Of a stretch of 64,000 nt of DNA, positions 40,992 through 61,798 are shown piece after piece. The DNA comes from Sulfurospirillum cavolei (lineage in GTDB: Bacteria; Campylobacterota; Campylobacteria; Campylobacterales; Sulfurospirillaceae), in the NCBI RefSeq assembly GCF_001548055.1, contig NZ_AP014724.1:558001-622000 (forward strand), given 5' to 3'. Every line of letters starts with the position of its first letter. Positions within the stretch are counted from its first letter, which is position 1. Below the pieces are notes generated by a model. It did not search any database. It worked only from the letters and a program-made list of their open reading frames with translations, and was not told the DNA's origin. The position numbers and the translations under genes are program-made.

Positions 40992-41003
40992 AAGGTAGTG
41001 GTT

Positions 41004-45779: not shown

Positions 45780-45805
45780 ATCACGGCTTGGTGGAAAAAA
45801 CTATA

Positions 45806-46768
45806 ATGAAAAATTTTGCTCTGATTGGAGCTTCTGGTTATATCGCTCCACGACATATGAAAGCGATTAAAGATACAGGGAATGATCTGATTTGTGCTTT
45901 AGATAAAAATGACAGTGTAGGGATTATTGACAGTTATTTTCCAGAAGCAAGCTTTTTTACGGAATTTGAACGTTTTGATCGCTTTGTGGATAAATGGCGA
46001 AGAGAACAAGGGAAAAAAATAGAATATGTTTCTATTGCAACGCCAAATTATTTACACGATGCGCATATTCGTTTTGCACTCAGGAATGAGGCACATGCAA
46101 TTTGTGAAAAGCCTTTAGTTTTAAATCCTCACAATATTGATCAGCTAAAAATTATCGAGCAAGAGAGCGGTAAACGAGTTTATACAATTTTGCAATTAAG
46201 GCTTCATGATTCTATTATTACACTCAAAAATAGAGTTGAAAGTGAATTACGTTTAAATCCTCATAAAATTTATGATATTGATTTAACGTACTTGACCAGT
46301 CGCGGAAAGTGGTATTTTACCAGTTGGAAAGGGGATGAGTCTAAAAGTGGGGGCATCGCAACCAATATCGGCGTACATTTTTTTGATATGCTCGCATGGA
46401 TTTTCGGGACGATAGAAGAAAACAGTGTCCATATCAAAAATGCAGACACCAATGCCGGCTTTATAAAGTTCAAACATGCAAATGTAAGATGGTTTTTATC
46501 CGTTAATTATGAGTATATCCCTGAAGAAATCCAAAAACAAGGTAAACGCACTTTCCGAAGTATGACAGTAGACGGGGAAGAATTTGAATTTAGTGAAGGG
46601 TTTACGGAATTACATACCTTAAGTTATAAACATATTTTTGAAAATGACGGTTTTGGTCTGGACGATGCTCGTAGTTCTATTAATATCGTTTCTACAATTC
46701 GAAAATTAAACCCTATAGGTTTAAAAGGCGAATATCATCCTTTTGCTTCTAAAGTTTTGCACGCATGA
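45806..46768 (+). CDS. wbpB: UDP-GlcNAcA 3-dehydrogenase (Gfo/Idh/MocA family)
   Basis: 320 aa from ATG 45806. The start [18 protein letters not shown] and [18 protein letters not shown] are those of WbpB/WlbA. The catalytic Lys is in CEKPLVLNP and H in GVHFFDML. Oxidises C3 of UDP-GlcNAcA; works in concert with WbpE. Next genes wbpD and wbpE follow with 4-base overlaps, same order as in other WbpBDE sets. AT-rich. Confidence 0.93.
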
Positions 46769-47334
46769 ATACTTTTTTTGTACATGAATCAAGTTATGTT
46801 GATGAGGGTGTATGTATCGGAGAAGGAACAAAAATTTGGCACTTCTCTCATATTTTAAGTGGTTCTTGCATCGGAACAAATTGCTCTTTTGGTCAAAATT
46901 GTGTGGTTGGTCCCCATGTCAAAATAGGACATAGCGTGAAAGTCCAAAATAATGTTTCGATTTATGAAGGTGTTGAAATTGAAGATGATGTTTTTCTAGG
47001 TCCTTCCGTCGTTTTTACCAATGTGATTAATCCACGGGCTTTTATCTCTCGTAAAAATGAATTTAAAAAAACGCTGGTAAAAAAAGGAGCTTCTATTGGA
47101 GCGAATGCAACTGTTATCTGCGGAGTCACAATCGGACATTATGCATTGATAGGAAGTGGAGCCGTAGTCAGCAAAGATGTTCAGCCTCATGCCCTCATGG
47201 TCGGGGTTCCGGCAAAACAAATAGGTTGGGTTGGCATATCCGGTAGTACGCTAATTTTTACCAATGAACAATCGGAAGATGACTATGCGTATTATCACCT
47301 TGTAAACGATGCACTAAAAGTCGTGCTAAAATGA
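46765..47334 (+). CDS. wbpD: UDP-2-acetamido-3-amino-glucuronate N-acetyltransferase
   Basis: 189 aa left-handed beta-helix acyltransferase. [48 protein letters not shown] and [14 protein letters not shown] are the WbpD/WlbB pattern; the C-terminus adds PAKQIGWVG. Acetylates the 3-amino group made by WbpE. Confidence 0.93.
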
Positions 47335-48440
47335 AAATAGATTTTGCTAATTTAAAGTACCAACACGCATTGTACCAAGATGAAATTGAACAAGCCATTT
47401 TAAAGGTTGTTCGAAACTGTAATTTCATTATGGGAGAAGAGGTACAAGAGTTTGAAAAGCACTTAGAACATTTTACGAAAGTAACCTATGCTATTACATG
47501 TAGCAGTGGTACGGATGCTTTATTACTCGCGATGATGGCATTGGATATCACTCCTGGGGATGAAATTATCACAACGCCGTTTACATTTATTGCCACAAGT
47601 GAAACCATGGCATTATTGGGAGTTAAACCTGTATTTTCAGATATTGATGAAAAAACTTATACGCTTGATCCTCTTAAAATAGAAGAAAAAATTACGTCTA
47701 AAACAAAAGCGATTATGCCTGTATCTCTTTATGGGCAACCTGCTGATATGGATGCGATTCAAAATCTTGCCGATGCTTATCGTTTAAAAGTGATCATCGA
47801 CGGTGCTCAGAGCTTTGGAAGTACATGTAAAGGTAGAAGCGATAGCGCATTAGGAGATATATCCTGTACGAGTTTTTTCCCGGCAAAGCCGTTAGGATGC
47901 TATGGCGACGGTGGTGCCGTATTTACCAATGATGAGCACCTCGCTTCAAAACTAAAATCATTAAGAGTGCATGGACAGACAAAACGGTATTATCACGCGT
48001 ATATTGGTCTTGGCGGAAGACTTGATACGATACAAGCTGCTATTTTGAACGTCAAATTAAAATATTATGAAAAAGATTTGGACTTAAGGCAAAACGTTGC
48101 GAAACAATATACGCAAGCTTTACAAGAAATCCCTAATGTAACCTTGCCTTTTCTCTCACAAAATACGACGAGTGCCTGGGCACAATATTCGATTAGGGTA
48201 CACAATCGAGATGTCGTTCAAGAACAATTAAAGCGTGCTGAAATTCCGACAGCTGTACATTACCCTGTACCTCTTCACTTGCAAGAATGTTTTCGTTATT
48301 TGGCATATCAACAAGGTGATTTTCCTATTGCCGAACGTATTGCACAAGAGATCATCAGCTTACCGATGAATCCTTATATCACAAGTGAAGAGATCGCATA
48401 CATTGCTCACACTTTACGAGAAGCAATAATAGATCATTAG
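47331..48440 (+). CDS. wbpE: UDP-3-keto-GlcNAcA 3-aminotransferase
   Basis: 369 aa DegT/DnrJ/EryC1 PLP enzyme. [39 protein letters not shown] and the PLP lysine in [20 protein letters not shown] are visible. Transfers an amino group to C3 after WbpB. Contains two ACATGT sites, unlike wbpB and wbpD. Confidence 0.94.
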
Positions 48441-48514: not shown

Positions 48515-48844
48515 ATGGCAACTCCCAATTTCCCTGATTCTGAAGCGCTAGCTGTTTTGAGAAGCGCCGAGAATCATTCATCGCAAAGTACCTTAGCAGA
48601 TGAGATAGGTTATAGTGTCGGCAAGGTCAATTACATCCTTAAAGCTTTGATTGAAAAAGGCTTTGTCAAAGTGCAACGCTTCGCAAATAGCGATAATAAA
48701 AAAGGATATAGCTATCTTTTAACAAAAGAGGGGATTAAGCATAAGCTGTATTTGACGGAAAAATTCGTTCAAATCAAAAAGCAAGAGTACGACGAATTAC
48801 AAGCCGAACTTGAAAAATTGAAAAAACAAGCCGATGCTCTCTAG
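48515..48844 (+). CDS. MarR-family EPS-associated transcriptional regulator
   Basis: 109 aa winged-helix protein with a C-terminal coiled coil (about 85-107). The recognition region STLADEIGYSVGKVNYILKALIEKGFVKV matches the small MarR-like group found in exopolysaccharide/O-antigen loci. Likely controls the sugar cluster around it. RBS AAGGAAATCT. Its end overlaps a flippase remnant. Confidence 0.85.
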   Translation: MATPNFPDSEALAVLRSAENHSSQSTLADEIGYSVGKVNYILKALIEKGFVKVQRFANSDNKKGYSYLLTKEGIKHKLYLTEKFVQIKKQEYDELQAELEKLKKQADAL

Positions 48845-48957: not shown

Positions 48958-49029
48958 AGTGATAATAGCGGAGTTGTCGGATACTTGGAAAGCAACATGT
49001 TATTATTTGAAAGAAAATTAGGTATTTAA
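48958..49029 (+). pseudogene. Remnant: last 23 codons of an unidentified gene
   Basis: An open frame ends at TAA 49027-49029, sharing its last A with the flippase ATG (TAATG). It reads SDNSGVVGYLESNMLLFER then KLGI. It has no start of its own. The coupled stop/start suggests it was the gene before wzx in the donor cluster. The family is not recognised. Confidence 0.5.
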
Positions 49030-50294
49030 TGTTAAAAAGAAATCTTTATTCACCTTTTTTGAAGAATACAAGTATTTATTTGTGCGGTTCTCTTATTAGT
49101 GCCGGTGTTCCTTTTTTATTATTGCCCATTCTCACAAGACATCTCAATCCAAGTGAGTATGGCTACGTATCAATGTTTACTCTTCTATTATCCATTGTTG
49201 GAGTTTTCACGGGCTTAAGTGTACAAGGTTCTATAGCAAGAGAGTATTTCAATGAAAATATTAATTTTAAAGAGTTTGTTTTTAATTGTATTCTTCTTCT
49301 CTTCATCAGTACTTTATGTGTTATGCTGCTATTTTTACTTTTTATAGAATATATTAGCAAGTGGTCTTCCCTATCAGATTATTATTTATATGCAATTGTT
49401 GGCATATCTTTTTTTCAATTTCTTAGTTTAATAGTTTTAGCTTTATATCAAATTCAAGCGAAAGCAAAAGAATATAGCTTTATGCAAATCTTTCAATCTA
49501 GCGGTACAGTGTTACTTAGTATCTTTTTTATTGTGTATTGTGAGATGGACTGGCAAGGAAGAGCTTTAGCTCAAATACTTACGATGATAACTATAGGCTT
49601 AGTATCATGTAAAATTTTATATAAAGATTGGATTGTTATTCGTGTGAACAAAGAGTATTTAAAAATTGCTTTATCTTTTGGGTTGCCTCTTATTCCTCAC
49701 AGTTTGGGAGGAACACTGGTTGTCGTCGCCGATAGATTAATTATCAATAATTCTTTGGGTGTTTATGATGTGGGCATTTATACGGCAGGGTTACAGATTG
49801 GAAAGATGATGAGTCTAGTGACAAGTTCTATAAGCAATGGGTACACGCCTATTTTTTATAAATGTTTAAATGAAAGCAATGACACATTAAAAAAGAAAAT
49901 TGTTTTGCTGACATATATATATTTTATAGGACTTCTTGTTTTAGCTTTTATAATAGGGTTTTTTGCACCACTCTTAGTAAAGTATATCTTAGGAAAGAAT
50001 TTTTTTGCTTCTGCCAATATAATTTTTTGGATAGCGCTAGGAGAGGCTTTTAACGGTATGTATCTTGCTGTTGTCGGATATATTTTTTATGTTAGGAAAA
50101 CAATAGGTTTGGCAATAATTACTTTTGTATCCGGGGTGACATGTATTGTAAGTACATATCTTTTGGTCCAAATAATGGGGATTGAAGGTGCCGCAATAGC
50201 TTATAGCATAAGTTTATTGACGACGTTTTTATTAACGTGGATATATGCTATTAAAAATTACAAAATGCCTTGGTTTGTAGGTAATGTAAAATGA
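49029..50294 (+). CDS. wzx: Polysaccharide/O-antigen flippase
   Basis: 421 aa polytopic protein of the MATE/PST superfamily with about 12-14 helices; N-terminal FLKNTSIYLCGSLISAGVPFLLLPILTRHL and middle LPLIPHSLGGTLVVVADRLIIN. Moves undecaprenyl-linked oligosaccharide across the inner membrane. Very AT-rich. Follows a recombination scar and overlaps the next gene by 4 bases. Confidence 0.88.
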   Translation: MLKRNLYSPFLKNTSIYLCGSLISAGVPFLLLPILTRHLNPSEYGYVSMFTLLLSIVGVFTGLSVQGSIAREYFNENINFKEFVFNCILLLFISTLCVMLLFLLFIEYISKWSSLSDYYLYAIVGISFFQFLSLIVLALYQIQAKAKEYSFMQIFQSSGTVLLSIFFIVYCEMDWQGRALAQILTMITIGLVSCKILYKDWIVIRVNKEYLKIALSFGLPLIPHSLGGTLVVVADRLIINNSLGVYDVGIYTAGLQIGKMMSLVTSSISNGYTPIFYKCLNESNDTLKKKIVLLTYIYFIGLLVLAFIIGFFAPLLVKYILGKNFFASANIIFWIALGEAFNGMYLAVVGYIFYVRKTIGLAIITFVSGVTCIVSTYLLVQIMGIEGAAIAYSISLLTTFLLTWIYAIKNYKMPWFVGNVK

Positions 50295-52669
50295 TAAAAC
50301 ATAAGATTAAACGAATTATCCATATTTGTGCAAGTTTACAAAAGCGGGATACTTATCAACAGATTGAGCCTTGTGATATTCTTTTTTGTTGTAGTGAAAA
50401 TGATTTAGGCGATGTCATTAATTCAAAATTTTATTCAAAAACGATAGATTATTTATTTGAAACAATGCAACAACATAATATTTCCGTACAAAAAATTTTA
50501 TTGCCTTTTTCGTCTTTATCTCAAAGTAAAATTTATCTCAAAAGCTATTCTGTTAATCGAAGCTATTTTATTGCAAGACTGTTAGATATTTTTTTAAGAA
50601 CAAAAAATAAATTTAGTATCGACGTATATAAAAATATATTAGAGCATTCTCATTGTAAGTGGATTATAGGTATAGGCTTAAATGAGTATCTATGTAAAGC
50701 TGCGGATGAGCTCAATATTTTTAGTGTTGAAGTGCTACACTCCTTAGGATTCCCTAATATACAGCATCCATGGTTCAATAAAGAAGAGTTCTTTTTACCA
50801 AAAGGAATTATGGTGTTCGATGATATATCATATAATACGTATGAAAAAAAATTGTCTAAAAGAACGAAACTTTTACGCTTAGATCCTTTTTGGTTAAATA
50901 AAAAATATTCATTATCTTCAATACCCGAAACTTTTGAGTTTGTAACAAAAGTGCAACGATACCAAAAAACTATACTCGTTTCATTACAATGGGGGTATGA
51001 TGGAGATACGAATTATTTTAATGGCATATTGGACAACGGGATTATCCATCAGAATTTGTTAAAAGCTATAGAGCAAACTCAAAATAAAATTTTGTGGCTG
51101 TTAAGATTGCATCCTGTGCAAGTAAGAGATCAAAAATATCGGCATCATGTCAATTTTGTTCAGTTGTTATGTCAAAAATATAAAAATGTTGAATATTCTT
51201 TTTCAAGTCATTTACCGTTATATGAAATCCTTGCTTTGGTAGATGGTCATATCACTATGTGTAGTATGCTCGCTTACGAAGCTAGTTTTTTTAACATTAA
51301 AACTTTTTTTATGTGTCCAACACTTAGAGCCGGTGGTGTGTATGAAAAATATTTTGAAGATTTAGTCGCAAAAGGTTTAGGAATTAAGAGTGAAGCTAAA
51401 ACAGAAAAAATTTTAGAATGGACGAATACATGCAGTAAAAGCAATATATTAGATGTACAAGTAAGTAGTATAAAATTTCAAATAGAAAGCATATTAAGTT
51501 GGTTAAAAGTGAGTTATGAGGAGCTCTATAAAAATTCTGATCAAATCTGTACCCGTTGTGTCATGGATACGACAGACCCAAAGATCGTGTTTGATGCAAA
51601 CGGTGTTTGTAATCACTGTAGAGAATTTGACGCCATTAGCTCAAAACGGTGGTTTCCGAATGAGGAGGGTGCGAAAACGTTAAATGCTATTTATGAAGGC
51701 ATTAAGCGTGAAAATGCTCACAAGCCTTATGATTGTATTTTGGGGCTTAGCGGTGGAGTTGATAGCTCTTATCTGGCGTTAAAATTACACGAAGCAGGTA
51801 TGCGCCCGCTGGTGGTTCATGTTGATGGTGGGTGGAATAGCGAGCTGGCTGTTGCCAATATTGAAAAAATTGTTCGCTATTGCGGTTGGGATTTACACAC
51901 TATCGTGATTGATTGGGAAGAGATGAAAGATTTGCAACTGGCGTATCTAAAATCGGGAATTGCCAATCAAGACGTTCCGCAAGACCATGCTTTTTTTGCC
52001 TCTTTGTACCATTTTGCCACCAAGCATGGTGTTAGGTATATTATCAGTGGAGGGAATATCGCTACCGAGAGCGTCCTACCGAAATCATGGCACTGGGATG
52101 CGATGGATGCAGAAAATTTGAGAGCAATTCATCAAAAATTCGGTACCCAAAAGCTCAAAAACTATAAAACAATAGGATTTTATGAACTCTATTTTTACTA
52201 CCCTTTTATCAAGAAGATGAGAACCGTTCGACCTTTGAATTTTATGCCTTATATCAAGCGTGAAGCATTGCAAGAACTAAAGGAAAAAATAGGCTATAAA
52301 GAGTATGCAAGAAAGCACGGAGAATCCATTTTTACAAAGTTTTTTCAAAATTATTGGTTGCCTGCAAAATGGGGATACGATAAAAGAAAGCCTCATTTAT
52401 CCAGTTTGATTCTCTCTTCTCAAATGACAAGAGAAGAAGCGTTAGAGGAGCTTAGCAAACCGTTGTATAACGAGCAAGAACTCAACGAAGATAAAGCATA
52501 TGTCGCTAAAAAATTGGGTATAAGTACGGATGAGTTAGAACAAATTTTTCATATGCCAACTCATAGCTATAAGGATTTTGCCAATAGGGAACGAAACTAT
52601 ACGCAAATGAAAAAAATTCAATCTTTTTTAACAAAATTACTCGGCAAAAATTTGTCGCGATATTCGTAA
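50291..52669 (+). CDS. Fusion: glycosyltransferase-like N-terminal domain + WbpG-type N-acetyl sugar amidotransferase
   Basis: 792 aa. Residues 1 to about 410 are a very AT-rich, GT-B-like domain of unknown substrate (contains ILVSLQWGYDGDTNYF, WLLRLHPVQVRDQKY and a VDGHITMCSMLAYEASFF motif). From residue 417 a complete WbpG begins: QICTRCVMDTTDPKIVF, CNHC zinc-type cysteines, then PP-loop LSGGVDSSYLALKL near 480, and the C-terminal REEALEEL...ELNEDKAYVAKKLG part. Base composition rises abruptly near 51540, the domain border. WbpG uses ATP and ammonia from HisH/HisF to make an acetamidino group. A second, free WbpG is at 54059. Confidence 0.85.
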   Translation: MIKHKIKRIIHICASLQKRDTYQQIEPCDILFCCSENDLGDVINSKFYSKTIDYLFETMQQHNISVQKILLPFSSLSQSKIYLKSYSVNRSYFIARLLDIFLRTKNKFSIDVYKNILEHSHCKWIIGIGLNEYLCKAADELNIFSVEVLHSLGFPNIQHPWFNKEEFFLPKGIMVFDDISYNTYEKKLSKRTKLLRLDPFWLNKKYSLSSIPETFEFVTKVQRYQKTILVSLQWGYDGDTNYFNGILDNGIIHQNLLKAIEQTQNKILWLLRLHPVQVRDQKYRHHVNFVQLLCQKYKNVEYSFSSHLPLYEILALVDGHITMCSMLAYEASFFNIKTFFMCPTLRAGGVYEKYFEDLVAKGLGIKSEAKTEKILEWTNTCSKSNILDVQVSSIKFQIESILSWLKVSYEELYKNSDQICTRCVMDTTDPKIVFDANGVCNHCREFDAISSKRWFPNEEGAKTLNAIYEGIKRENAHKPYDCILGLSGGVDSSYLALKLHEAGMRPLVVHVDGGWNSELAVANIEKIVRYCGWDLHTIVIDWEEMKDLQLAYLKSGIANQDVPQDHAFFASLYHFATKHGVRYIISGGNIATESVLPKSWHWDAMDAENLRAIHQKFGTQKLKNYKTIGFYELYFYYPFIKKMRTVRPLNFMPYIKREALQELKEKIGYKEYARKHGESIFTKFFQNYWLPAKWGYDKRKPHLSSLILSSQMTREEALEELSKPLYNEQELNEDKAYVAKKLGISTDELEQIFHMPTHSYKDFANRERNYTQMKKIQSFLTKLLGKNLSRYS

Positions 52670-52677
52670 GGGCATTC

Positions 52678-53286
52678 ATGATAGCCATACTTGATTACGG
52701 AATAGGCAATTTAAAATCTATTCACAATATGTTTAAAAAAATCGGAATTGATGCGGTGATTACATCAGATATTCATGAAATCCAAAATGCCGATAAGTAC
52801 CTTTTACCCGGTGTAGGCTCTTTTGATTATGCGATTATGCGCCTAAAAAACGCTTCTTTTTTTGATGTCTTGGAAAAAGAAGTTTTAGAGGTAAAAAAGC
52901 CCGTGCTTGGCATTTGTCTTGGGATGCAACTTTTGACGCAAAGAAGCGAAGAGGGTAAAGAGCAAGGGTTGGGCTGGATAGATGCGCAAACGATACGATT
53001 TGATTTGGACGATAAAAGTTTGGCGATTCCTCATATGGGTTGGAACAAGGTCATACCAAGAGAAGAGGGAAAGGTGCTCTTTAAGCATTTGCAAGAGAGT
53101 CGGTTCTATTTTGTGCACTCCTATCACGTTGTCTGCAACGATGAAGCAAACATCGCGGCAACAACGTGTTATGGGGATGATTTTACATGCAGTGTTTCTA
53201 AAGGCAATATTTACGGTGTGCAATTCCATCCTGAAAAGAGCCATAAATTCGGTATGCAACTTCTTAAAAACTTCGGAGAACTGTAA
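52678..53286 (+). CDS. Glutamine amidotransferase HisH2 for sugar amidation
   Basis: 202 aa class I glutaminase of HisH type. Cys in [16 protein letters not shown] (near 80), His/Glu in GVQFHPEKSH, oxyanion residues in PGVGSFD. Position between two WbpG genes and before a specialised HisF marks it as the dedicated pair (as in P. aeruginosa wbpG-hisH2-hisF2), not the histidine enzyme, which is at 62733. Gives ammonia to HisF2. Stop overlaps hisF2 as TAATG. Confidence 0.88.
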   Translation: MIAILDYGIGNLKSIHNMFKKIGIDAVITSDIHEIQNADKYLLPGVGSFDYAIMRLKNASFFDVLEKEVLEVKKPVLGICLGMQLLTQRSEEGKEQGLGWIDAQTIRFDLDDKSLAIPHMGWNKVIPREEGKVLFKHLQESRFYFVHSYHVVCNDEANIAATTCYGDDFTCSVSKGNIYGVQFHPEKSHKFGMQLLKNFGEL

Positions 53287-54062
53287 TGCTTCAAAAAAGA
53301 GTGATTCCGTGTCTTTTATTGCATAAAGGGGGATTGTATAAAACGGAAAAATTCAAAAAACCGACGTACATTGGCGATCCCATTAATGCGATTAAGATTT
53401 TTAACGAAAAAGAAGTCGATGAGCTGATGTTTTTGGATATTGATGCAACCATTTTGCACAAAGAGCCAAATTATAAAATGATAGAAGACATTGCCGGTGA
53501 ATGTTTTATGCCTCTGTGCTACGGCGGTGGTGTGAAGAATATAGAGCAGATGAAAAAGATTTATGCCCTAGGAGTGGAAAAAATTTCACTCAGTTCACAA
53601 GCTATTTTAAACCCACCGCTGATCGGCGAAGCGGCCGGTATCTTTGGCAGTCAGTCCGTGATGGTCACCATAGACGTTAAGAAAGATTTTTGGGGAAAGA
53701 CAAAGGTTTTTATCCATAATGGAAAAACCAACACAAAGCTCAATCCCATAGAATTTGTGACCATCGTTGAACGTCTAGGAGCGGGTGAAATCGTTATCAA
53801 TTCAATTGATAACGACGGGATGATGAATGGATATGATATTGAACTGCTAAAAGCACTAAAAGCCGTTTTAAATGTTCCTCTTATCGCGCTTGGGGGTGCG
53901 GGGAAAATGGAACATATCAAAGAGGTGTTTGAACAAGCAAACGTAGATGCCGTTGCCTGCGGCAGTCTTTTTGTGTATCAAGGGCCGCTTAAAGGCGTTT
54001 TGATTAGTTATCCTCCCTATGAGCAGATTCAAACGTTATTGGACGGAGGGACACATTTATGA
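53286..54062 (+). CDS. AglZ/HisF2-type acetamidino modification protein
   Basis: 258 aa TIM-barrel of HisF family, starting RVIPCLLLHKGGLYKTEKF. Canonical HisF has Asp at position 11 in the CLDV motif; here residue 11 is Leu. The second catalytic Asp (VTIDVKK) is kept. The cyclase reaction of histidine synthesis is therefore not expected; the barrel likely channels ammonia from HisH2 to WbpG. Other kept parts: CYGGGVKN, INSIDNDGMMNGYD, ALGGAGKMEH. Confidence 0.88.
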   Translation: MLQKRVIPCLLLHKGGLYKTEKFKKPTYIGDPINAIKIFNEKEVDELMFLDIDATILHKEPNYKMIEDIAGECFMPLCYGGGVKNIEQMKKIYALGVEKISLSSQAILNPPLIGEAAGIFGSQSVMVTIDVKKDFWGKTKVFIHNGKTNTKLNPIEFVTIVERLGAGEIVINSIDNDGMMNGYDIELLKALKAVLNVPLIALGGAGKMEHIKEVFEQANVDAVACGSLFVYQGPLKGVLISYPPYEQIQTLLDGGTHL

Positions 54063-55186
54063 CGTACGATGCAATAAGGGTGTGTACCAGATGCGTGATG
54101 GACTCCACGATCAAAGCGATTGATTTTGATGAGGATGGCGTTTGTAACTATTGCAAAACATACGAACACAGGGTTGCGACGGAATTATACAAAGAACCTG
54201 AGAGAAGCGAAAGACTGTATGCGTTAATTCGCACGATGAAAGAAGAGGGCAAAAATAAAAAGTATGATTGCATCATTGGTGTTAGCGGAGGTGTCGATAG
54301 CAGTTATATCGCTCATTTGGTGCATGAATTTGGTTTGCGTGCCTTAGCCGTACATTTAGACAACGGTTGGAATAGTGAATTGGCGGTAAAAAATATTCAG
54401 TTACTTTTAGACAAGCTTCATATTGATTTGTACACGCATGTTATTGACTGGGTGGCGTTTAAGGATTTGCAAAAGGCATTTATCAAATCCTCTATCGAAA
54501 ATTTAGAAATACCGACAGACCATGCCATCACCGCATTGCTGCTTCAAACGGCGGATAAACACGGCGTGCGCTATATCTTAAACGGAAGTAATTTGGTCAC
54601 GGAAGGCATCTTACCCGTTCAAGGCGGTAGAAGCATCGACGATAGGCTCTTAAAGGATATTCATAAAAAGTTTGGAACCCAAAAATTGAGTAATTATCCC
54701 GTGATGAGTATTTGGAGTTTTGCCTACAAAGTGCTGGTAAAGAGAATTAAATACCTTCCGATTCTAAATTATATGGATTACGATAAAGAGGCTACAATTC
54801 GTTTGCTTGAGGAAAAATACGGCTGGAAAAGGTACGGCGGAAAGCATTATGAGTCTATCTTTACACGATTTTTCCAAGGCTATTTATTGCCGATGAAGTA
54901 TGGTTACGATAAACGAAAAGCGCATTTTTCGACGTTGATTATGTCGGGTCAAATGAGTAGAGAAGAGGCCTTGCAAGAGCTAACACTCAACCCTTATCCT
55001 AGCGAAAGGCTTTTGGAAGAAGACAAGGCGTTTTTTTTGAAAAAGTTTGATTTTACCGAGAAAGAGTTTGAGCATATTATGAAGCAACGTCCAAAAGTAC
55101 CGTCTGATTTTAATTCTTACGAGAGGCTTTTTGAGACATTAAAACCTTTGATGCTTAAAATCAAAGAGTATGCTAAAGGCAATTAG
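54059..55186 (+). CDS. wbpG: N-acetyl sugar amidotransferase (WbpG-type)
   Basis: 375 aa. N-terminal VCTRCVMDSTIKAIDFDEDG with CNYC, PP-loop VSGGVDSSYIAHLV (near 76), HGVRYILNGSNLVTEG, KYGYDKRKAHFSTLIMSGQ. Converts the N-acetyl of ManNAc3NAcA to an acetamidino group with HisH2/HisF2, just upstream; overlaps HisF2 as ATGA. Similar in layout to residues 417-792 of the upstream fusion but clearly diverged. Confidence 0.9.
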   Translation: MTYDAIRVCTRCVMDSTIKAIDFDEDGVCNYCKTYEHRVATELYKEPERSERLYALIRTMKEEGKNKKYDCIIGVSGGVDSSYIAHLVHEFGLRALAVHLDNGWNSELAVKNIQLLLDKLHIDLYTHVIDWVAFKDLQKAFIKSSIENLEIPTDHAITALLLQTADKHGVRYILNGSNLVTEGILPVQGGRSIDDRLLKDIHKKFGTQKLSNYPVMSIWSFAYKVLVKRIKYLPILNYMDYDKEATIRLLEEKYGWKRYGGKHYESIFTRFFQGYLLPMKYGYDKRKAHFSTLIMSGQMSREEALQELTLNPYPSERLLEEDKAFFLKKFDFTEKEFEHIMKQRPKVPSDFNSYERLFETLKPLMLKIKEYAKGN

Positions 55187-58649: not shown

Positions 58650-59657
58650 TTGGCACTGATCGATACTTTTGTCTTGTTCAAATGCTTGACGGTTTTTAGC
58701 GTATCGTTAAGTTTAAACGTTTTTTTGGTTTATTATCAAAAACGCATCAATATTTTAGATATTCCCAACGATCGTAGTTCGCATGATCGCGTGGTTCCTC
58801 GAAGCGGCGGCATTGCTATTTTTAGTGCGTTTGTTTATGCCTTTGTTCTTTTCAATCCTCTTGAAAACGCGATAGCGTTATTGCCCTTGACTTTGGTTTT
58901 TATAACAGGACTTTGGGACGATATTCGCTCGGTACCCGCAAGGCTTAAGCTACTTATTACGGCATGTGCCGGAGGATTGTTGTATCTGAACGGATTTGAT
59001 ATTCAACGGTTCGGAATCTTTTTTGGGCATGAAATTGTTTTTACTTTCTGGGCAGCATTGGCGTTTTGCGCATTTGCGATTAGCGGATTTGTGAGCGCTC
59101 TTAATCTGATCGACGGCTTAGACGGGTTAGCCTCGTGTATAGCGTTAGTTATCTTAGCGGCATTTTCTTATATCGGATGGAAATATGAAGATCTTTTTTT
59201 GTTTTATACGTCCGTAGGCTTGATCAGTGCTTTGATAGGATTTTTAGTCCTAAATTGGCATCCGGCTAAAATTTTTATGGGTGATAGCGGTAGTTTAACG
59301 ATAGGTTTTATTATTGCGATGCTGACGCTTTATTCGATTCAAAAAGCGTATATAACGGCTATTTCCATTTTGCTTTTAGCGGCTATTCCGATTTTAGATA
59401 CATTGATCGTGATGTTACGACGCATCCTTAACCATCAAAGCCCTCTGCATGCCGATAAAACCCATATACACCATATGATTTTTCAATTGCAAAACGGCAA
59501 TACGCGAAGAACGGTTATTATTTTAGGGCTTTTGCAAGGATTTTTTTCGTATATAGGGTTAGGATTTAAAGTGCGAGACGATGTTTATATTTTCTTTCTT
59601 TATGCTCTTTGCTTTACGATTTTTTATCTTTTACTCACACCCAAAAGAGGTGCTTGA
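58650..59657 (+). CDS. Undecaprenyl-phosphate N-acetylaminosugar-1-phosphate transferase (WecA/WbpL-like)
   Basis: 335 aa, about ten helices, start TTG 58650. Family motifs: ILDIPNDRSSHDRVVPRSGG at the N-terminus, [35 protein letters not shown] and DKTHIHH. Loads the first amino-sugar phosphate onto undecaprenyl phosphate and so starts the glycan. Composition close to the backbone. Stop overlaps pglB as TGATG. Confidence 0.92.
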   Translation: MALIDTFVLFKCLTVFSVSLSLNVFLVYYQKRINILDIPNDRSSHDRVVPRSGGIAIFSAFVYAFVLFNPLENAIALLPLTLVFITGLWDDIRSVPARLKLLITACAGGLLYLNGFDIQRFGIFFGHEIVFTFWAALAFCAFAISGFVSALNLIDGLDGLASCIALVILAAFSYIGWKYEDLFLFYTSVGLISALIGFLVLNWHPAKIFMGDSGSLTIGFIIAMLTLYSIQKAYITAISILLLAAIPILDTLIVMLRRILNHQSPLHADKTHIHHMIFQLQNGNTRRTVIILGLLQGFFSYIGLGFKVRDDVYIFFLYALCFTIFYLLLTPKRGA

Positions 59658-61798
59658 TGGATTTACGTTACAAAAGTTACGTTGCATTATATTGTTTGAT
59701 TGCTTTTGCGTTTAGCATTGCGATTCGTTTGATTTGGGTGTATCAGTTTAGCGATTTTGAGAGTTTTCACTATGCCGATACGTTTATGATTAACACCAAC
59801 GACGGTTATTATTGGGCGGAAGGTGCGCGAGATTTGCTTGCGGGGGTACATCAAAAGTTTGACGGCTCTCCCATAGATCAAGCCCCTGCTCAATTAACGT
59901 TTCTGCTTGCGAAAATAGTACCGGTTTCGTTTGAAACGCTTATTTTTTATATGCCGGCCGTTTTGGGATCGTTGATCGTTTTCCCGATGATGTTGATCGC
60001 GTATAACCTCGGTATGATCGAAGTCGGTTTCCTTGCATCGTTATTGGCGTCGATCGCGGTCAGTTATTACAATCGAACGATGATCGGGTATTACGATACC
60101 GATATGCTCAATATCGTCTTCCCGACACTTCTTTTATGGTCGTTGATTTTGGCATTACGCACAAAAGAAGATAAATACCTTCTGATAACGGCAGTAGAAA
60201 TTATTGCGTATCGATGGTGGTATCCGCAAAGCTATTCGTTGGAATTTGCATATTTGGGGTTGATCTTAGTTTATGCTTTGGTGTTTGAGCGTAAAGAGTC
60301 TTTCCCGATAAAGTTAATCGCAATGATGCTTTTTGCGATGATGGGTTTGCCGATATTGGCCCGTTTGATCGGTGTAAGCGTGCTTTATGCCCTCTTCAAA
60401 CAAAAAAAACTTGCTTCATACGTGTGGTATATTTTAGCGATCGGTAGTATTCTTTTTTTTGCAACGGGAGGGTTCTCTCCGATTTGGGCGCAATTAAAAA
60501 GTTATGTTTTTAAAGATGCGATCGACGTAAGCCAGCAAGGACTCGAACTTCATTTCTTCTCAGTTAACCAAACGATTCGAGAAGCCGGCGATATTCCTTT
60601 TTCGGTTTTTGCGGAGCGAATCAGCGGACATACGATCACGTTTGTTGCTTCGATAGTCGGTTATGTGTTATTGGTACGACGTTACAAAGCGATGTTGTTG
60701 GGATTACCGCTCATGGGACTCGGCTTTTTAGCACTTTGGGGCGGACTACGCTTTACGATTTATGCCGTACCCGTTTGCGCGTTGGGCGTTGCCTATCTAC
60801 TTTTTATACTTAGTAGCTCCATTACGGGACTTTTCGTCAATGAAACATTGGGGCGGATTCTCAAATCGAGCTTTGTCGTAACGGCAAGCTTAGCCGTTTT
60901 ATATCCTAACGTCGCGCATATTATCGAATATAGAGTTCCGACCGTCTTAAATAAAACCGAAGTCGAACAGCTCTCATCATTGCGAAATAACGTCGGTAGA
61001 GAAGATTATATCGTGACATGGTGGGATTACGGCTATCCGTTACGCTACTATGCCGATACGAAGACGTTGATCGATGGCGGAAAACACGGCGGCGACGTGA
61101 ATTTTCCCGTCAGTTTCATGCTCACGAATACGCAAGAAAGTGCGGCGCGACTTGCCCGTTTGGAAGTCGAATACACCGAAAAAGCCTTTGTAACGGCCGA
61201 AGAAAACGAAACGAAAGAACACCCAAAAAAGATCATCAACAATACCGCTCAAATGAGTTTGGATTACGGTTTTAACAATGCCGACGATTTTTTAGATGCG
61301 TTGCAAACGCCTTTGAGCTTACCTCAAAAAACGCGTGAAATCTACTTCTATTTACCGTTTCGCATGCTCAGTATTTTCCCGACCGTCGCACAATTTAGCA
61401 ATTTGGATCTTATGAGCGGCAAAACGGTTCGCCATCCTTTTTTCTACGAAACAAGTCGTTTTCAAGACGGTGCTAAATTGCTTCAACTCGGAAACGGTAT
61501 CGCTTTGGATAAAGAAAAAGGAGCGTTAAAAATCGGCAGTAACGAAGTTGGCGTTCGTACCTTCATTCAAACGGGATACGACGAGCGCGGTACCTTTGTG
61601 AAGCAACAACAATCGCTTCATCCCAACGGTGAACTCAATGTGATCTACATGCAGCCATATAATACCTTTTTAATCGTCGACAACGCTATGTTCGAATCGA
61701 CGTATATACAACTTTTTGTTTTGGAAAATGCGGATGGGCGGTTTTTTGAGCCGATTAGTTTAGAACCGTATGCTAAAATATACCGTTTGAAAATTTAG
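59657..61798 (+). CDS. pglB: STT3/PglB-type oligosaccharyltransferase
   Basis: 713 aa from ATG 59657. N-terminal part with about 13 helices, the first acidic motif in MINTNDGYYWAEG, and a C-terminal periplasmic domain with the catalytic WWDYGYPLRYYADTKTLIDG (near 455). This is the general N-glycosylation transferase acting on Asn of D/E-x-N-x-S/T sites in Campylobacter. Here it follows a WecA-like enzyme; the usual pgl genes (pglA, C, D, E, F, H, I, J, K) are not in the window. Confidence 0.95.
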   Translation: MDLRYKSYVALYCLIAFAFSIAIRLIWVYQFSDFESFHYADTFMINTNDGYYWAEGARDLLAGVHQKFDGSPIDQAPAQLTFLLAKIVPVSFETLIFYMPAVLGSLIVFPMMLIAYNLGMIEVGFLASLLASIAVSYYNRTMIGYYDTDMLNIVFPTLLLWSLILALRTKEDKYLLITAVEIIAYRWWYPQSYSLEFAYLGLILVYALVFERKESFPIKLIAMMLFAMMGLPILARLIGVSVLYALFKQKKLASYVWYILAIGSILFFATGGFSPIWAQLKSYVFKDAIDVSQQGLELHFFSVNQTIREAGDIPFSVFAERISGHTITFVASIVGYVLLVRRYKAMLLGLPLMGLGFLALWGGLRFTIYAVPVCALGVAYLLFILSSSITGLFVNETLGRILKSSFVVTASLAVLYPNVAHIIEYRVPTVLNKTEVEQLSSLRNNVGREDYIVTWWDYGYPLRYYADTKTLIDGGKHGGDVNFPVSFMLTNTQESAARLARLEVEYTEKAFVTAEENETKEHPKKIINNTAQMSLDYGFNNADDFLDALQTPLSLPQKTREIYFYLPFRMLSIFPTVAQFSNLDLMSGKTVRHPFFYETSRFQDGAKLLQLGNGIALDKEKGALKIGSNEVGVRTFIQTGYDERGTFVKQQQSLHPNGELNVIYMQPYNTFLIVDNAMFESTYIQLFVLENADGRFFEPISLEPYAKIYRLKI

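Follow-up and report, generated by a model that had tools for sequence, protein, structure and literature searches.

Probable merger of a GT-B-like transferase gene with wbpG in an O-antigen-type cluster of Sulfurospirillum cavolei

Results

A 792-codon open frame in an O-antigen-type cluster

We analyzed a 64,000-nucleotide stretch of Sulfurospirillum cavolei DNA (NCBI RefSeq assembly GCF_001548055.1, contig NZ_AP014724.1, positions 558,001 to 622,000), referred to here as the window. The host genome consists of one contig of 2.7 Mb and is 99.99% complete. We found that the window contains an open reading frame of 792 amino acids on the forward strand, which begins with ATG, has no internal stop codon, and carries a transferase-like part followed by a WbpG part (Table 1). 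The end of a wzx-type gene overlaps the start of this frame by 4 nt. An earlier note made from the same DNA had described a glycosyltransferase-like region joined in frame to WbpG, and our data agree with that description.

The genes of the cluster are reminiscent of an O-antigen locus of the ManNAc3NAmA type. It includes genes that we take to be wbpA-like (at 40998), wbpB/D/E-like (45788-48440), wbpI-like (56258), and wbpL-like (58650), named by resemblance and from knowledge of the Pseudomonas pathway. HisH2, HisF2, and both WbpGs were tested with profiles, and the remaining cluster members are named by resemblance. Among the latter are a gene for a small winged-helix-like regulator (48515-48844), located between the wbpE-like gene and wzx, and a 729-codon gene for a PglB-like oligosaccharyltransferase (59609-61798). 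Since the PglB-like gene ends the cluster, the glycan might reach proteins alongside or in place of lipid A.

Table 1. Features of the merged frame and its neighbors (window positions)
Feature	Position	Strand	Basis or remark
wzx-type flippase gene	49029-50294	+	ORF; homologous to the gene preceding the transferase gene in L104 and L106; named by resemblance
792-codon open frame, transferase-like and WbpG parts	50291-52669	+	ORF listing
N-terminal part, 406 residues up to GTG, complete GT-B-like glycosyltransferase homologue	50291-51508	+	free homologues; fold model and Foldseek; GC 0.29
RLHP motif, transferase residues 272-275	51104-51115	+	alignment, motif check
DxHxTxxSxxxxEA motif, transferase residues 318-331	51242-51283	+	motif check
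In-frame GTG, only usable-looking free-WbpG start as sequenced	51509-51511	+	13 codons ahead of first Cys; modest ribosome-binding energy, -4.7
GAGGAG, orphan ribosome-binding site	51518-51523	+	pairing energy -8.6 relative to the lost start
AT, apparent wbpG start-codon remnant	51528-51529	+	7 codons ahead of first Cys; by-eye alignment with L015 and other starts
TGA in neighboring frame, apparent former transferase stop	51538-51540	+	sequence
WbpG part from first Cys	51548-52669	+	TIGR03573, 326 bits
Tetracysteine (zinc) motif, residues 420-443	51548-51619	+	motif check; PMC10607449
PP-loop SGGVDS, residues 487-492	51749-51766	+	motif check
hisH2-type glutaminase partner	52678-53286	+	TIGR01855
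hisF2 partner, AglZ/HisF2 family	53286-54062	+	NF038364
Second, free wbpG	54059-55186	+	TIGR03573, 287 bits; 46% identical to fused WbpG

The N-terminal part corresponds to a complete, putative transferase

Homologues of the N-terminal part are free proteins of 412-434 codons in Vibrio, Massilia, and other bacteria. The Vibrio hepatarius homologue (412 amino acids, L022:339-1577) aligns with it from end to end, and further free homologues are present in genome G712 (L102:1501-2739), in Massilia (L041:496-1743, 415 amino acids), and in genome G992 (L103:1441-2733, a 434-codon frame). In loci L104 and L106 the transferase gene comes after a wzx-type gene homologous to that of the window, and in L097 of Massilia its predecessor is a membrane-protein gene of comparable size; in these three loci approximately 2.3 kb separate it from wbpG-hisH2-hisF2 downstream. 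L105 has it immediately before hisH2-hisF2-wbpG. Our data thus do not support the earlier description of the N-terminal part as a foreign domain, since it is a whole gene product whose free homologues are normally found near wzx and wbpG/hisH2/hisF2. A viral or plasmid origin was also rejected, given that viral contigs searched as a source returned no match and plasmids returned a single weak match in Azospirillum, with neighbors annotated as neuB and HisF2.

Searches with the N-terminal approximately 410 residues gave no Pfam match (seven family members tested) and no NCBIfam match, which weakens the family assignment and leaves the fold reading untouched. Structure prediction, as the earlier note had proposed, yielded a mid-quality AlphaFold2 model (pLDDT 68; one row from a plasmid record was left out of the alignment) with GT-B-like Foldseek matches to UDP-GlcNAc 2-epimerases, a polysialyltransferase, and TagF (best E 5e-10, TM approximately 0.5, rmsd 7-10). 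Together with the conserved RLHP and DxHxTxxSxxxxEA-type motifs, these matches suggest that the N-terminal part is a GT-B enzyme, which would presumably catalyze sugar transfer. L104 and L105 also carry NeuB-type enzymes and cytidylyltransferases; these genes, and the neuB and HisF2 neighbors of the Azospirillum match, indicate that the sugar transferred there may be a nonulosonic acid. From such neighborhoods, the family may comprise nonulosonic-acid transferases. In L104, L105, and L085 the family gene adjoins genes for NeuB and CMP-sugar synthetase. We found no NeuB in the window cluster, and the sole copy found in the genome is approximately 500 kb away.

The WbpG part retains the features of N-acetyl sugar amidotransferases

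Residues 418-753 of the frame are homologous to WbuX/WbpG (TIGR03573, 326 bits versus a curated NCBIfam cut-off of 203). The WbpG part contains both the CxxC...[GN]xCxxC tetracysteine motif and the SGGxDS PP-loop, which characterize N-acetyl sugar amidotransferases according to the LpNASAT structure paper (PMC10607449), and hisH2 and hisF2 are present in the operon (52678-54062), as expected for such an enzyme. Its nearest named WbpG relative within the phylum belongs to a Sulfurimonas MAG. The fused WbpG departs from the family norm of a free protein of approximately 375 residues, a norm that is an observation rather than a formal definition. LpNASAT has 43 residues ahead of its first cysteine, and a long stretch at its N terminus proved too flexible for modeling; since LpNASAT tolerates this extension, an addition at the N terminus would not necessarily inactivate WbpG (PMC10607449). 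The recognized motifs of both halves are all intact, so that a working fused enzyme is possible, though unsupported.

The two amidotransferases of the operon may share one ammonia-supplying pair while acting on different sugars, and wbpG-hisH-hisF-wbpG quartets were also found in L107, L108, and L109. If both accept the same substrate, the second, free copy would compensate for a partial defect of the fused WbpG.

The fusion has one known occurrence

Across 71 loci in genome contigs, WbpG is free in every locus that could be scored, which leaves aside loci truncated by a contig end or overlooked by the motif search. In the phylum, TIGR03573 matches exceeded the cut-off in 104 of 397 genomes and, among the matches listed, only the one in the window lies above the cut-off within a frame longer than approximately 440 codons. 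Approximately 100 other genomes of the phylum thus carry WbpG as a free gene. These data are consistent with the earlier statement that WbpG is normally a free protein. A search for the same two-domain protein, which had been proposed as a check, gave no second example in the scorable contig loci, the 397 phylum genomes, or the members of the genus, and a widespread fusion was rejected. An unfused, adjacent copy of the same two genes was likewise absent from 24 genus members and 399 order members; distant relatives have both genes unfused, but not directly adjacent.

Base composition changes at the gene border

The N-terminal part has a GC content of approximately 0.29 (GC3 0.22) versus 0.39 (GC3 0.38) for the WbpG part. 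Plotting GC in 100-base windows, another proposed check, revealed a step at the joint, from 0.27 (51420-51519) to 0.42 (51540-51639), so the sharp change noticed earlier near 51540 is real. The N-terminal part is indeed very AT-rich, but it shares this property with the preceding wzx: wzx (0.31) and the transferase part (0.29) form one AT-rich block, and wbpG-hisH2-hisF2-wbpG2 form the next (0.39-0.41). The composition border is a gene border, and perhaps a cassette border too, and it is not a mark of splicing within a gene.

The joint resembles a wbpG start that lacks one base

Free transferases end near residue 406-416 of the frame, and free WbpGs have an ATG 6-8 codons ahead of the first Cys in 31 of 56 cases. 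The joint, at which the frame reads ...SWLKVSYEELYKNSDQICTR..., coincides with both the usual transferase end and the usual WbpG start. It had been noted that no linker Met is present here; this holds for ATG, but not for the in-frame GTG at 51509. Between GAGGAG and the Cys motif there is no in-frame ATG, GTG, or TTG. The AGGAG within GAGGAG has no second copy in the 1.25 kb of the transferase part, and 20.8 kb of sequence contain 13 copies in all.

In an Arcobacter relative (L015), the corresponding region reads GAGGA...TTG-AAA-AAT-T...-CAA-ATT-TGT, with its start codon exactly at the matching spot, and the window reads GAGGAG...AT-AAA-AAT-T...-CAA-ATC-TGT. By this alignment the window resembles a wbpG start minus its last base. 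We compared the remnant with a matched null that demands a one-indel start at the right distance, a stop codon for the upstream frame, and a binding site of equal strength; the null rate was 0.5% for a start at -7 exactly, 1.5% when -6 to -8 was allowed, and 2.3% when the range was -4 to -10, values that serve as guides rather than strict probabilities since the criteria were chosen with the sequence already known. The notion that any one-base change separating the two genes proves a frameshift was rejected, as 80-89% of random codons pass; what carries the case is therefore the remnant of the binding site, together with the resemblance to relatives. Codon bias adds little as proof of a relic: GAG accounts for 7 of 22 Glu codons in the transferase part and is thus not rare there, and of the 36 Glu-Glu pairs encoded in the cluster, 3 are written GAGGAG. 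In L110, where the orthologous wbpG, hisH2, and hisF2 are 74-81% identical, wbpG shares an 11-nt overlap with a different transferase gene, which is read in another frame.

The joint has no flanking repeats, no Rfam element, and an ordinary RNA fold (z +1.6), and an insertion or recombination at the joint was rejected on these grounds. A phase-variable tract was rejected as well, since the joint contains just A5, versus G9/C9 in L114 and L116. In these two loci, from other genomes of the order, a wbpG-type gene breaks into two frames precisely where a G9/C9 run lies (approximately 772 in L114 and 716 in L116), an arrangement that looks like phase variation of sugar amidination.

Discussion

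We hypothesize that two complete operon genes were merged into one frame by the loss of a single base at the wbpG start codon, and we regard this as moderately probable. Such a loss would have deprived wbpG of its start and, at the same time, shifted the TGA of the transferase gene, which lay upstream and overlapped wbpG, into another frame. The border unites a natural gene end with a natural gene start and leaves an orphan binding site, which points to loss of a start and stop through a single-base change or to a sequence error, the latter a case that the earlier note had itself listed as refuting the fusion. Furthermore, free homologues end where the N-terminal part ends and are located near wbpG-hisH2-hisF2. 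The short distance of 4 nt from GAGGAG to the lost start counts against a base loss, as does the lack of a sister genome with the intact pair in our searches; the match to relatives was also made partly by eye with the sequence already known. Other unfused ancestors are possible, for example one with a 4-nt overlap at GTG 51509.

If the base loss took place, the cell would make a protein of approximately 92 kDa from the merged frame. HisH2/HisF2 would deliver glutamine-derived ammonia to the WbpG half, which would convert an N-acetyl to an acetamidino group in an ATP-dependent reaction, and the GT-B-like half with its RLHP motif would add one of the O-unit sugars. Both halves could keep working while tethered.

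A sequencing or assembly error is less probable, though its chance is substantial. Here the base would be present in the organism, and the locus would consist of two ordinary overlapping genes without a fusion. A single base stands between a unique 792-amino-acid frame and an ordinary arrangement, and the evidence comes from one assembly. However, that assembly is a nearly complete single contig, the other genes listed in the window show no obvious breaks, and the frame stays open through 18 long base runs, A8 and four T7 among them, whereas the joint has only A5.

We consider it improbable that the frame encodes a selected bifunctional enzyme in which the transferase is tethered to amidination and the modified sugar is passed on. 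Motifs are kept in both halves, LpNASAT tolerates an N-terminal extension (PMC10607449), and the transferase family recurs near amidination genes of unrelated bacteria, which suggests that the transferase and WbpG may act in connected steps. Against this, the fusion is without a second genome and lacks a linker, a once-separate wbpG still shows a perfect leader and binding site, and the same operon holds a second free WbpG. The more elaborate proposal, that one polypeptide both makes and adds the amidinated sugar, with a previously unmodeled GT-B-like family tethered to WbpG and scaffolded with HisH2/HisF2, is doubtful to a slightly greater degree. We see no sign of selection for tethering. 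The earlier note had left a choice between a tether and a by-product with one active domain; the by-product is the likelier of the two, but neither half shows visible damage to its motifs.

In-frame joining of two gene ends by recombination is very improbable: the GC step at 51.5 kb and the conservation of wbpG-hisH2-hisF2 (72-81% in L007, L008, and L110) next to upstream genes that differ between L008 and L110 make a cassette boundary near the joint plausible, but both proteins are whole, the upstream wzx matches the transferase part in AT-richness, repeats do not flank the joint, and the binding-site remnant suggests that the leader of wbpG survives up to 51518. Thus, of the recent recombination proposed earlier, the joining of two genes stands and is probably recent, while recombination within a gene is unsupported. 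Taken together, these data favor a mostly ordinary accident at the locus, or an error in the sequence, over the recent construction of an enzyme with two parts.

A genuine fusion would amount to a natural experiment, with the hint that the transferase and WbpG act in connected steps. It would also offer the first clue to the function of a transferase family that lacks a Pfam entry and yet turns up close to acetamidino-sugar genes in several groups of bacteria. Should the fusion be an error, the lead from gene neighborhoods stays and the annotation should become two genes.

Among known systems, the WbpG half is most readily compared with WbpG/WbuX/LpNASAT (TIGR03573; PDB 8WEX; PMC10607449), with which it shares the tetracysteine motif, the PP-loop, a full-length match over the cut-off, and adjoining hisH2 and hisF2; those proteins are free and approximately 375 residues long, whereas WbpG here is the second half of a 792-amino-acid frame. 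The free transferases of Vibrio hepatarius, Massilia, G712, and G992 match the N-terminal part over its whole length (22-27% identity), in RxHP, in the D...S motif region, and in their amidination neighborhood, but they are encoded by separate genes and directly contact hisH2 only in L103 and L105. The polysialyltransferase 5WCN, TagF 3L7I, and the UDP-GlcNAc 2-epimerases 3DZC appear to share the overall fold (Foldseek E 5e-10 to 1e-8, TM approximately 0.5, by way of the pLDDT-68 model) and differ in sequence, with 10-14% identity. Finally, long WbuX-like proteins of 607-682 codons (L099:386-2218 and L100:438-2480) likewise combine an amidotransferase core with an extra N-terminal domain. Their core lies below the TIGR03573 cut-off, and in both proteins examined the extra part starts with MCGIFG and is class II glutaminase-like (asparagine-synthase-like) rather than a transferase. 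This domain would represent a self-contained ammonia supply in place of HisH2/HisF2.
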